In this document: positions 42,370 through 46,869 of the stretch, in pieces | How the letters are laid out: every line of letters starts with the position of its first letter | How positions within the stretch are numbered: the first letter of the stretch is position 1 | Assembly (NCBI RefSeq): GCF_011440375.1 | Contig: NZ_JAAOIR010000002.1 | Location: 1 to 64,000 of the forward strand | Origin: Halorubellus sp. JP-L1 | GTDB lineage: Archaea > Halobacteriota > Halobacteria > Halobacteriales > Natrialbaceae | Length of the DNA: 64,000 nucleotides | Direction: 5' to 3' | Program-made: the position numbers and the translations under genes | The notes under the pieces: generated by a model | The model's database searches: none | Seen by the model: the letters and a program-made list of their open reading frames with translations, nothing else | Told to the model about the DNA's origin: nothing

Positions 42370-42533
42370 GTCGGGTGGAGGAAGGGGCCGCGGCTTAGTG
42401 CTTGTGAACCGTCGCGGAATTGGCCGTAATCCGACCCTACGGCGGCGTCTGCCGCCTATACGGGATATTCGGCGACGGCTACCACGCGAAACGATTGGAA
42501 GCATTAAATGAATGGATGCCAAGTGTAGATTCA

Positions 42534-43040
42534 ATGGCTACCACGTCCGTTGCAGACGACGACAGGGAGGGATCGTACACGCCGGCCGGGGACGTCGACG
42601 CGGTTCTCGCCGCGCTCGAGGACGTCGACGTCGAGGCATCGAACGACGGGGTCGCGGGCGAGCACGACGACGACGCGGTGCTCCCGGGGCTCGACGCCGC
42701 GCTCGAGGAGCTCGCGGCGGCCGTCGGCGCATCGGCCGACGACCCCGGAACCGACGACGACGGGGACGACGCCGGTTCGACGGCGGACTCGGGCGAGCGG
42801 GGCGACTCGAGCGACCGGGGCGACTCGAGCGACCGGGGCGGGTTGACGCGCGAGCGCGCGGACTTCGACGTGGTCGCCGAGAACACGGAGGTCGACTCGA
42901 TCCCCTACGAGAACGCGGCGGCGTTCCTCGCGAACACGCTGTACGCGGTTCCGCCGGCGAACACGCGCTTCGAGTGGGTCGCGTTCGAGACCGAGGCCGA
43001 GGACCCGACGCCGGACTGGGACCTCGACGTCGACTGGTAG
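42534..43040 (+). CDS. Acidic protein of unknown function
   Basis: A 168-aa highly acidic protein. Residues ~1-110 are low-complexity (Asp, Ser, Gly) and include a duplicated GDSSDRGDSSDRG. The conserved-looking part is the end: RADFDVVAENTEVDSIPYENAAAFLANTLYAVPPANTRFEWVAFE. The start at 42534 is chosen because 'cattaaatg' (~42502-42510) lies ~28 bases upstream; in-frame ATGs at 42516 and 42420 are alternatives. No family is recognised. Confidence 0.6.
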   Translation: MATTSVADDDREGSYTPAGDVDAVLAALEDVDVEASNDGVAGEHDDDAVLPGLDAALEELAAAVGASADDPGTDDDGDDAGSTADSGERGDSSDRGDSSDRGGLTRERADFDVVAENTEVDSIPYENAAAFLANTLYAVPPANTRFEWVAFETEAEDPTPDWDLDVDW

Positions 43041-43141
43041 CGACGTTCGGTTCGAGCGCGACGCGGCGGGTGCAGCGAGCGGTGAGAGCGGACGTGGACG
43101 TGGACGTGGACGAGAATCGGAACGCGTGGGTTTCAGCGGAA

Positions 43142-43150
43142 CGTTTAATC
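43142..43150 (+). promoter_or_regulatory. TATA box of the pheST leader
   Basis: cgtttaatc lies about 29 bases before the ATG of the 27-codon leader ORF. It fits a leaderless start at 43175 and is the strongest promoter-like element upstream of pheS. Confidence 0.6.
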
Positions 43151-43174
43151 TGTGGCAGGTGCCTACGGTGACGT

Positions 43175-43258
43175 ATGGTAGCCGCATCCGGCTCCGGTGG
43201 GAGCGTCGACGAGCACGCCACGACTCCGGGAGTCGGCTTCTTCTTCGCAGCGGCGTGA
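43175..43258 (+). CDS. Phe-containing leader ORF upstream of pheST
   Basis: A 27-codon frame starting MVAASGSGGSVDEH and ending G-F-F-F-A-A-A with three consecutive TTC codons just before the stop. It begins about 29 bases after a TATA element, so its transcript should be leaderless. The stop is followed within 15 bases by nested hairpins (43271-43325), and pheS starts 130 bases downstream. Position and Phe codons resemble the bacterial pheST attenuator leader, but archaeal attenuation of this kind is not established, so the regulatory role is inference. It could instead be a small functional peptide or chance. Confidence 0.55.
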   Translation: MVAASGSGGSVDEHATTPGVGFFFAAA

Positions 43259-43270
43259 GCGCGGTGGACG

Positions 43271-43325
43271 TTCGAGTGCGACCGCATCGCGGGGAACCGC
43301 GCCTGCGGTCGTCTTCGGGCTCGAA
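43271..43325 (+). promoter_or_regulatory. Nested hairpin between leader ORF and pheS
   Basis: Outer arms TTCGAG (43271-43276) and CTCGAA (43320-43325); next GACCGCA (43280-43286) and TGCGGTC (43304-43310), a 7-bp perfect stem; innermost CGCGG-GGAA-CCGCG (43288-43301). It is a strong RNA structure in the leader. No T-run follows directly, so it is not a simple terminator. Confidence 0.6.
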
Positions 43326-43387
43326 ACCGCTCTCGTCGCGAGTAGGAACTGATAACTGACCGAGTAGCGGATACGCACACAAGATCG

Positions 43388-44890
43388 ATGGAACTGAAAG
43401 CGACACACGTCGCGGTCCTGGAGACCGCGGACGCGACCGAGCCGCGGTCGGTCGACGCGATCGCCGACGAGTCCGGGGAACCGCCGGAGTCCGTCGTCGG
43501 CGCGGCGTTCGACCTGGCCGAGCGCGGGCTCGTCGACGTGACCGAGCGCGTCGAGGAGTCGGTGGCCCTGACCGCGGAAGGCGAGAGGTATCGTGACGCG
43601 GGCCTCCCGGAGGTCCGATTGTACCGAGCGGCGAAGGCGGCCGGTGCGACCGGCGACGAGGCGGTGCCGATGGGCGAGGTCATCGGCGCGAGCGACCTCG
43701 GCGACGCCGTGGACATCGCGCTCGCGAACTACGCCCGGAAGGGGTACGGCGTCGTCGAGAGCGGCGAGATCACTGCCGACGCGGACGCGGCCCCGGACGC
43801 GGACCCGGAGGCGGCGGCGCTCGACGCGGTCGCTGCTGGCGAGGCCGTCGACGACGACGTCCGCGAGAACCTCGAGCGCCGGAACCTCGTCGAGGTGACA
43901 GAGCGCACGCTCCGGTTCGTGGAACTGACCGAGGACGGCGTCACCGCGCTCATGGAGGGCGTGGAGGCGACCGACGCCGTCGGTCAGGTGACGCCGGAGC
44001 TGCTGTCCTCGGGCGAGTGGCGCGAAGCGGAGTTCGCCGAGTACGACGTCGAGGCGGACGCGGACGTCGAGTACGGCGGGAAGGAGCACGTGCTTCGCCA
44101 GACCGCCGAGCGCGTGAAGGACGTCCTCGTCGGGATGGGTTTCGAGGAGATGGACGGCCCGCACGCGGACGCGGAGTTCTGGATCAACGACTGCCTGTTC
44201 ATGCCCCAGGACCATCCCGCTCGCACGCACTGGGACCAGTTCGCGCTCGACGTGCCGCCGATGCAGGACCTCCCCGAAGAGCTCATGGCGCGCGTCGAGG
44301 ACGCGCACCGGAACGGCGTCGGCGAGGACGGCGACGGCTATCACTCGCCGTGGGGCGAGGAGATGGCGCGCGGCGTCGACCTGCGCGGGCACACCACATC
44401 GCTGTCCATGCGATACCTCTCCGGGCACGCGGTCGGCGACCTGGAACCGCCCCAGCGGTACTTCTCCGTGGAGAAGGTGTACCGGAACGATACCCTGGAC
44501 GCGACGCACCTCCTGGAGTTCTTCCAGATCGAGGGCTGGGTGATGGCCGAAGACCTCAGCGTGCGCGACCTCATGGGGACGTTCGAGGAGTTCTACGCGC
44601 AGTTCGGCATCACGGACATCGAGTTCAAGCCCCACTACAATCCCTACACGGAGCCGAGCTTCGAGCTGTTCGGCGAGCACCCGGAGACCGGCGAGGTCGT
44701 CGAGATCGGGAACTCGGGGCTGTTCCGCGAGGAGGTCCTGTCGCCGCTGGGCGTGGACTGTGACGTGATGGCGTGGGGGCTCGCGCTGGAGCGCCTGCTG
44801 ATGCTCACGCACGGGTTCGAGGACATCCGTGACGTGCACGGGACGCTCGTCGACCTCGAGTTCCTCCGCGACGAGGAGGTGGTGTACTGA
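43388..44890 (+). CDS. pheS: Phenylalanyl-tRNA synthetase alpha subunit
   Basis: A 500-aa alpha subunit of the (alpha-beta)2 class II enzyme. The N-terminal ~190 residues carry winged-helix tRNA-binding domains with an acidic insertion (TADADAAPDADPEAA). The catalytic core follows: motif 1 around FEEMDGPHADAEFWIND, RGHTTSLSMRYL, motif 2 RYFSVEKVYRNDTLDATHL, FEQ-type FQIEGWVM, and motif 3 AWGLALERLLML. The stop overlaps the pheT start by 1 base (TGATG). Upstream lies the leader ORF and hairpins. Confidence 0.96.
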   Translation: MELKATHVAVLETADATEPRSVDAIADESGEPPESVVGAAFDLAERGLVDVTERVEESVALTAEGERYRDAGLPEVRLYRAAKAAGATGDEAVPMGEVIGASDLGDAVDIALANYARKGYGVVESGEITADADAAPDADPEAAALDAVAAGEAVDDDVRENLERRNLVEVTERTLRFVELTEDGVTALMEGVEATDAVGQVTPELLSSGEWREAEFAEYDVEADADVEYGGKEHVLRQTAERVKDVLVGMGFEEMDGPHADAEFWINDCLFMPQDHPARTHWDQFALDVPPMQDLPEELMARVEDAHRNGVGEDGDGYHSPWGEEMARGVDLRGHTTSLSMRYLSGHAVGDLEPPQRYFSVEKVYRNDTLDATHLLEFFQIEGWVMAEDLSVRDLMGTFEEFYAQFGITDIEFKPHYNPYTEPSFELFGEHPETGEVVEIGNSGLFREEVLSPLGVDCDVMAWGLALERLLMLTHGFEDIRDVHGTLVDLEFLRDEEVVY

Positions 44891-46869
44891 TGCCCGTCGT
44901 CGACGTGCATCCCGACGAGCTACGGGAGCTGACGGGTCACGAAGAGAAATCGGACGAGGAGCTCAAGGACGACCTGTTCGGGCTCGGCCTCGAGTTCGAG
45001 GGCGAGACCGAGGACGGCGCGTTCGAACTCGAGTTCGCGCCGGATCGCCTCGACCGTCTCAGCGTCGAGGGCGTCGCGCGGAGCCTCCGGTACCACTACG
45101 GCGACGACCGCGGCGTCTACGTTCCGAACACGAACGACGCGGACTGGACGATCCAGGTGGACGACAGCGTGCCCGACGAGCGCCCGTACGTCACGGGCGC
45201 CGTCGTTCGGGACGTGGACCTCGATGAGGACGCGCTGGATTCGCTCATCCAGCTCCAGGAGAAGCTGCACGCGACGATGGGTCGCAAGCGCGCGAAGGGC
45301 GCCATCGGCATCCACGACCTGACGATGCTGAAGGGAGCGCAAGTCGAGCGGGACGATGATGCGACCGGCGACGGGGAGGACGTCGGTGACGTCGGCGACG
45401 ACGTGCGGGTCGTGGAGACGAACAAGTCCATCTCGTACGTCGGCGTCGAGCCGGACGAGGACGCGTTCGTGCCGCTGGACTCCGATAGCGAGCTGACGCC
45501 CGCCGAGGTCCTCGAATCGCACGCGACGGGCCGGGAGTACGCGGACCTCGTCGCCGAGTACGAGCGGTATCCGGCGATCTACGACGACCTCGGGCTGTTC
45601 TCGTTCCCGCCGGTCATCAACGGTCGCCGGACGGAGGTGTCGACGGACTCGCGGAACCTCCTCGTGGAGATGACGGGCACGGACCAGTGGACGATCGACA
45701 AGATGCTGAACGTCGTCTGTTATGCGCTCGAAGCACGTGGGGCGACGATCGAGGACGTCCAGGTCGAGTACCCGGACAGCGGCGTGTACGCCGCGGACGA
45801 CCGCGCGAATCCGGGGGCGACGCTCGTCCGCCCGGACCTGACCCTCGACGAGAAGCGGGTCGCGCACGACCGCATCGAGCGCGTGCTCGGCGTCCCGCTG
45901 GACGCGAGCGAGGTCGCGGACCTCGCGGAGCGCGCCGGGCTCGACGCCGCACCGGTCGATACGGCGACCGGGGCGCATCCCGAAGCGGCCGCGGGGACCG
46001 GAAGCGACCTGCCCGACGACCCGCGGGGGGAAATCGAGGGGTCGGGGGCGACGACGGCGAGCGCGGACCGAGCCGGCGGGAGTGGGGACGCCGAACCCGC
46101 GGGGTCGACCGTCGAGGGCGACCTCGTCTACGACGTCGACGTGCCGCCGTACCGCGTGGACGTCCTCCACGCGCTGGACGTCGTGGACGACGTCGGTCGC
46201 GCGTACGGCTTCAACGAACTCGACCCGAAGGCGCCGGACGTGTCGACGAACGGCGGCCGGCACGAGCGCTCGCGCCTGGAACGCGCGGTCCGTAGCCAGC
46301 TCGTCGGCCTCGGGTTCCAGGACTTGCTGAACTTCCACATGGTCGCGAGCGAGGAGAACTACGACCGCATGAACCTGACTGCCGCCGACAGCGCCGCCGA
46401 CGCGGACGCGCTCGGCGCGGCGCCGCCGGTGACGATCACGGAGCCGTACAGCGAGGACTACGAGCAGTTGCGGTCGTGGGCGCTCCCGAGTCTCGCGCTG
46501 GTCCTGGAGAACAACACGCACCGCGCGTACCCCCAGGACCTCGCGGAGATCGGCCTGGTCGCGCACGTCGACCCAGACGAACCCACGGGCGTCCGCGAGG
46601 AACGCCACGTCGCCGCGGTGCTCGCTCGCGCCGACGCCTCCTACGAGGACGCCAAGAGCCGCCTGCAGGCGCTCGCGCGGAACTTCGACGCGGACCTGGA
46701 GACGCCGCCGACGGCACACCCGTCGTTCATCGACGGCCGGACCGCGAGCGTCGTCCTCGACGGCGAGGAGGCTGGCGTCGTCGGCGAACTCCACCCGAGC
46801 GTGCTCGTCGAGCACGATCTGGAGGTGCCGGCGGTCGGGTTCGAGTTCGACCTCGGAGCGCTCGAGTAA
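44890..46869 (+). CDS. pheT: Phenylalanyl-tRNA synthetase beta subunit
   Basis: A 659-aa archaeal-type beta subunit with B3/B4 editing region (~95-260), B5 DNA-binding-like domain, and a catalytic-like module (~430-600: RSQLVGLGFQDLLNFHMV...). A halophilic low-complexity insertion (~360-405, Gly/Ala/Asp/Ser) interrupts B5, between LAERAGLDAAPVD and YDVDVPPYRVDVLHALD. The last 17 codons are repeated 133 bases downstream with only synonymous changes and their own stop. Translation is coupled to pheS. Confidence 0.95.
   Translation: MPVVDVHPDELRELTGHEEKSDEELKDDLFGLGLEFEGETEDGAFELEFAPDRLDRLSVEGVARSLRYHYGDDRGVYVPNTNDADWTIQVDDSVPDERPYVTGAVVRDVDLDEDALDSLIQLQEKLHATMGRKRAKGAIGIHDLTMLKGAQVERDDDATGDGEDVGDVGDDVRVVETNKSISYVGVEPDEDAFVPLDSDSELTPAEVLESHATGREYADLVAEYERYPAIYDDLGLFSFPPVINGRRTEVSTDSRNLLVEMTGTDQWTIDKMLNVVCYALEARGATIEDVQVEYPDSGVYAADDRANPGATLVRPDLTLDEKRVAHDRIERVLGVPLDASEVADLAERAGLDAAPVDTATGAHPEAAAGTGSDLPDDPRGEIEGSGATTASADRAGGSGDAEPAGSTVEGDLVYDVDVPPYRVDVLHALDVVDDVGRAYGFNELDPKAPDVSTNGGRHERSRLERAVRSQLVGLGFQDLLNFHMVASEENYDRMNLTAADSAADADALGAAPPVTITEPYSEDYEQLRSWALPSLALVLENNTHRAYPQDLAEIGLVAHVDPDEPTGVREERHVAAVLARADASYEDAKSRLQALARNFDADLETPPTAHPSFIDGRTASVVLDGEEAGVVGELHPSVLVEHDLEVPAVGFEFDLGALE

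Follow-up and report, generated by a model that had tools for sequence, protein, structure and literature searches.

The pheS and pheT genes of Halorubellus sp. JP-L1 are preceded by a short open reading frame (ORF) ending in phenylalanine codons and by a hairpin, which raises the question of whether this leader could sense the supply of phenylalanine through the position of the ribosome and, if so, by which step it would act on pheS. A preliminary description of the window (the whole 64-kb stretch of DNA that was analysed) had pointed out a 27-codon ORF, a TTC run near its end and a TATA-like element ahead of its ATG, and all of them were present on direct reading. The ORF runs from the ATG at 43175 to the TGA at 43256-43258, the TATA-like TTTAAT lies at 43144-43149 (-31 to -26 from the leader ATG) with GGAACG just before it, and pheS starts 129 nt downstream of the leader stop codon. 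The pheS of the window is 92% identical to that of Halorubellus salinus, the nearest genome in the collections. Upstream of the leader there is a 206-aa ORF (42420-43040) with no Pfam match. The features are displayed in Table 1.

Table 1. Positions of the features of the pheS leader region in the window.
Feature	Positions	Strand	Basis
Upstream leader promoter PL: BRE-like GGAACG and TATA-like TTTAAT	43138..43149	+	Sequence; homologous boxes in relatives
Leader ORF, 27 codons, ATG to TGA, MVAASGSGGSVDEHATTPGVGFFFAAA	43175..43258	+	Sequence; conserved at 88/117 pheS loci
TTC TTC TTC, three consecutive Phe codons, proposed sensor	43238..43246	+	Sequence
Post-stop hairpin: outer stem, purine internal loop, inner stem-loop	43257..43334	+	Covariance-model match, fold, covariation
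Internal loop, 5' strand UGGAC (consensus YGGAC)	43265..43269	+	GGA invariant in the 26-sequence alignment A2
Internal loop, 3' strand CGAAA, then CCGC closing the outer stem	43322..43326	+	CGAAACCG invariant in A2
pheS-specific motif GGAACTGATAACTGACC; probable BRE/TATA of a second, pheS-proximal promoter	43345..43361	+	Pattern match
pheS, phenylalanine-tRNA ligase alpha subunit, regulated gene	43388..44890	+	Pfam PF01409, 1.9e-75
pheT, phenylalanine-tRNA ligase beta subunit; start overlaps the pheS stop	44890..46869	+	PF17759, 1.9e-38

Concerning conservation, a fixed rule (an ORF that starts with ATG, is 18-50 codons long and has Phe codons clustered towards its end) was applied to pheS loci from 80 named genome records and from further genomes of the class, which gave 117 distinct upstream regions. 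A leader was found in 88 of these 117 regions. The same rule gave on average 0.3 leaders in dinucleotide shuffles, and a single one on the reverse strand. This comparison of sequences confirmed that the leader stands before pheS more often than expected by chance, and the objection left in the preliminary description, namely that the ORF or its Phe codons might not be conserved in relatives, did not materialise. The peptide follows the consensus MASEP-x(10-14)-GFGFFFA at the pheS loci of haloarchaea and is encoded by 24-29 codons; in the Haloferax relatives it has 26-28 aa and ends in GFGFFFLTA. Leaders were present in Halorubellaceae, Haloarculaceae, Natronomonadaceae, Haloferacaceae, Haladaptataceae, Natronoarchaeaceae, Natrialbaceae and Halobacteriaceae, and the alignments strongly support that leader, promoter, stop codon and hairpin have been kept across at least eight haloarchaeal families.

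About a quarter of the pheS loci carry no leader, with pheS still present. In a PheS tree of 80 rows, the well-supported branches force at least seven independent changes between presence and absence of the leader, which are read mainly as losses because the bearers have the peptide motif in common. In other classes of the phylum, 20 pheS regions were compared and none had a Phe leader adjoining pheS. Moreover, a profile search with the leader across the genomes gave only pheS above background, with no second copy elsewhere. At one locus (L007:3320-3451) the leader frame is broken by one base ahead of the Phe run and the hairpin is intact; the frameshift is possibly a sequencing error of the metagenome assembly.

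The promoter is conserved in position as well. Of 87 leader-bearing loci, 77 have a TATA-like box (RAACGYTTTTG) at -29/-30 relative to the leader ATG, a position that fits the predicted geometry of a leaderless transcript starting at the leader ATG. Leaderless mRNA is the commonest type in H. volcanii, with 72% (PMC4983044). Furthermore, the H. volcanii pheS gene (HVO_2948) has a mapped transcription start site (TSS), with a 5'UTR 150-250 nt long that contains a uORF of 26 aa (PMC4983044, Table 2 no. 13), so that the uORF of this species is experimentally on a transcript, since the TSS lies upstream with a long pheS 5'UTR. Being at the same gene and in the same place, with 26 aa behind a mapped TSS, this uORF is almost certainly the same element as the leader described here. 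Its peptide mass is given as 2772 Da, for which there was no exact match among the leader sequences examined. It is one of the 16 uORFs listed in that study, and its main text is silent on the Phe run, the hairpin, conservation and regulation (PMC4983044).

Concerning the Phe codons, the cluster is kept in the relatives as GFGFFF or near variants, and TTC and TTT vary synonymously. TTT, a rare codon, is roughly five times as frequent in the leader clusters as in pheS: it makes up 68 of 322 leader Phe codons (21%) versus 49 of 1099 in pheS (4.5%; Fisher p 3e-18, a value that is optimistic as the rows are related by descent). This excess might sharpen stalling. In the relatives, evolution of the central part of the peptide is close to neutral, in line with the codons being what matters and not the peptide.

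Directly after the leader stop codon comes a hairpin whose architecture is conserved: the outer stem has 5-8 bp and ends in GCGG/CCGC, the internal loop is YGGAC/CGAAA, and the inner stem-loop is GC-rich and variable. The nested stems noted beforehand are indeed there and form one nested hairpin, but the conserved outermost GCGG/CCGC stem with its UGGAC and CGAAA loop had been overlooked. In the window, the hairpin (43257-43334) has a folding energy of -49.3 kcal/mol, with z = -4.5 against 200 dinucleotide shuffles. Changes on both sides were found in 10 of 13 pairs of the 26-sequence alignment and, with 80 model-aligned sequences (77 distinct), double changes appeared in 12 of 13 pairs. The first count is the more independent one because the 80-sequence alignment was fitted to the model. 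In the latter alignment, the double-change cells numbered 211 versus 74 when shuffled and 42-60 when the partner was slid by 1-3 columns.

A covariance model of the hairpin gave at most one copy per genome, with matches in 41 of 117 genomes at E<=0.01. All 30 matches that were fetched lie at pheS, 29 of them according to the encoded PheS sequence and one (L142) according to the pheS coordinates, and the model did not find the element above background at genes other than pheS. At E<1, the hairpin was recovered at about 67 of 77 leader-bearing loci versus none of the 19 loci where no leader is present; one locus (L022) gave a borderline match only (E 6.6). With 21 bits, the copy in the window has a weak score on account of its long inner stem, which means that divergent copies would escape the model. 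Two known identities were considered for this structure. Comparison with Rfam 15 by cmscan over 43060-43420 gave no match to a known family up to E = 1, and a kink-turn was discarded because the geometry of the loop is unsuited on inspection, also with no Rfam match.

How far the Phe codons lie from the hairpin is informative about how the two could be connected. From the last Phe codon to the hairpin loop there are 18 nt on average in the relatives, and its two parts (last Phe codon to stop, and stop to loop) compensate each other, with r = -0.65 over 82 loci. In the full set, the summed distance has a variance of 3.5 versus 5.5 for the last-Phe-to-stop part and 4.3 for the stop-to-loop part. 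With only 58, 37 and 27 dissimilar loci retained, r was -0.58, -0.50 and -0.55, respectively, and in the two smaller thinned sets the summed distance varies slightly more than the stop-to-loop distance alone. Because of this compensation, selection appears to act on the distance from the Phe codons to the hairpin, to judge from the aligned loci. Given the general size of a ribosome, one waiting at the last Phe codon would just touch the hairpin, and one at the stop codon would cover its 5' strand. The arrangement of Phe run, stop codon and hairpin spacing therefore points to the putative anatomy of a ribosome-position sensor.

The same data bear on a different idea, according to which the ORF encodes a small functional protein whose position before pheS is incidental. 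Its N-terminal MASEP motif is conserved and hundreds of small proteins exist in H. volcanii (PMC4983044). However, this is very improbable considering that the peptide has no second copy elsewhere and a near-neutral middle, that its Phe codons stand at a fixed distance from an RNA hairpin, and that leader and hairpin are absent together.

Regarding these data, we consider it probable that pheST in haloarchaea has a Phe-sensing leader in which a hairpin state that depends on stalling sets the expression of pheS. The leaderless transcript would start at the leader ATG and the first ribosome would translate the leader of 24-29 codons. When Phe-tRNA is scarce, the ribosome would stall on the Phe codons with its front edge just short of the hairpin, which would stay folded, and when Phe-tRNA is ample, it would reach the stop codon, and the 5' strand of the hairpin would be covered or melted. 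The folded and the melted hairpin would then lead to different expression of pheS, in the simplest form with stalling giving more PheRS. The sensing of Phe supply by the leader is well supported by the comparative evidence; stalling, its direction and the output step are what we infer here. The output would most likely be transcriptional, through what becomes of the elongating polymerase upstream of pheS when transcription and translation are coupled; an output after transcription comes a close second.

Several candidates for the output step were examined. Between the leader stop and pheS, no run of more than three T was found in any of the 88 loci, so there is no U-tract of four or more and no classical intrinsic terminator, and an attenuator of the enterobacterial type (hairpin plus U-run) was rejected. 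It should be noted that this region is T-poor, with TTTT observed 0 times versus 1.1 expected, a depletion that is not significant. A hairpin switch that sequesters the pheS start was discarded as well, given that predicted access to this start is equal with the hairpin folded or with its 5' strand masked. In addition, a general P0 helix between the leader end and downstream sequence reached 5.73 versus 5.52 in swapped controls and was kept for Haloferax only, and no general mutually exclusive alternative structure was found across the loci. Of the Phe-starvation attenuator proposed in the preliminary description, the sensor half has strong support, with Phe run, leaderless-type promoter, stop codon and hairpin conserved and at distances that suit such a sensor; the attenuator half stays putative, with neither a U-tract nor a consistent alternative structure found.

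The lack of a U-tract would also suit a control of translation or stability, in which the state of the ribosome and the hairpin set processing, decay or internal initiation of the transcript with no premature termination. The loci L211 and L212 (G001 and G007), where the leader ends about 35 nt before pheS with neither hairpin nor proximal motif, have a layout suited to translational coupling and may, from their sequence, be a reduced, translation-coupled form. However, the structure at the pheS start is predicted to be unchanged whether the hairpin is folded or blocked, and the distance from leader to pheS is mostly too long for termination-reinitiation (median 135 nt). We regard this control as possible but would give it less than even weight.

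In H. volcanii, 59% of transcripts were stopped by a hairpin that lacked a T-stretch (PMC7237163), so that the Phe-sensing leader may well have a transcriptional output. The same result, along with the very high stability of the hairpin, could be taken to mean that the hairpin itself is a terminator which leader translation melts, so that Phe sufficiency raises pheS, in the opposite direction. This is unlikely: the synthetase would fall when Phe-tRNA is short, against the usual logic of synthetase leaders, and a simple terminator has no need of a purine internal loop.

Apart from the leader, the region just upstream of pheS contains a second conserved element. The pattern GGAACYGNTAACTGAC had at most one exact match per genome, with 18 of 79 genomes matched and none with the reversed-pattern control, and the matches lie just upstream of pheS wherever the pheS coordinates were at hand. 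A longer form of the motif is matched in at least 11 of its 18 positions by 110 of 117 pheS loci, whether or not a leader is present. The motif GGAACYGNTAACTGACC stands 30-50 nt before the pheS ATG and is retained even after leader loss. Its layout is like a BRE plus a weak TATA, but its conservation is above that of an ordinary core promoter. According to these patterns, it is probably either a second promoter, giving a leaderless pheS transcript that would bypass the leader, or a protein site. It could even be that this promoter mainly drives pheS, with the leader unit left as a decoy or relic, as the presence of the motif with and without leader and its resemblance to a BRE and a weak TATA at about 30-35 nt from the pheS ATG would allow. 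However, the upstream TSS is the only one given for H. volcanii pheS, with no further TSS at the gene itself (PMC4983044, Table 2), and leader and hairpin remain under clear selection, which makes this proposal quite doubtful.

A similar arrangement was observed at another synthetase gene. Upstream of the accessory TrpRS gene of Haloferax and a few other genera there is a conserved uORF of about 23 aa (M.STS.A.CWRW....EVDSIAV), seen in L230-L238 (also L160-L163) and patchy in its spread (10 of 242 genomes). In Haloferax, the Trp codons are flanked by a TCCACTTCCC/GGGAAGTGGA hairpin within the ORF. This uORF matches the one of 23 aa listed for HVO_A0127, and it resembles a leader that senses Trp.

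Concerning novelty, no archaeal ribosome-mediated attenuator was found in the literature searched, with most subscription papers outside the reach of the search. The preliminary description knew of no established archaeal case, and the search agrees with this, but the uORF of H. volcanii pheS behind its mapped TSS was already on record (PMC4983044). With moderate confidence, we propose that this is the first archaeal class of ribosome-read leader-peptide control, occurring in most of the haloarchaeal lineages sampled, on leaderless mRNA, with a new post-stop hairpin, no intrinsic terminator and a Trp counterpart. If true, leader-peptide sensing of tRNA charging exists outside bacteria too. As the case is conserved in genetically tractable haloarchaea, two questions become directly testable: whether archaeal transcription-translation coupling is tight enough for attenuation, and how a stalled ribosome switches gene output with no U-run terminator.

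Ribosome-read leader-peptide control of synthetase genes is a textbook bacterial device, and the Phe leader can be compared with several known or proposed systems. Among haloarchaea, the Trp leader of the HVO_A0127 type is likewise a small ORF in which the cognate codon recurs and which precedes a synthetase gene, but its peptide and hairpin are different and its spread is patchy. The bacterial T-box leaders also control aminoacyl-tRNA synthetase genes in cis through tRNA charging; in the haloarchaeal leader, however, the sensor is a translated-type ORF, and no T-box match was found by cmscan (Rfam 15, 43060-43420). In the enterobacterial pheST attenuator, the Phe-rich leader peptide pheM stands directly before pheS and is followed by RNA structure. 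The haloarchaeal leader has the same order, with a Phe-rich peptide before pheS and RNA structure next, but it differs in the lack of a terminator U-run, in its leaderless-type promoter, in the archaeal transcription machinery and in a hairpin with a purine internal loop. We know of no sequence relationship between this leader and pheM. Since the U-run terminator is absent, the haloarchaeal leader falls outside the enterobacterial pheM family, yet, in the mode of action proposed here, it would work like a bacterial attenuator.
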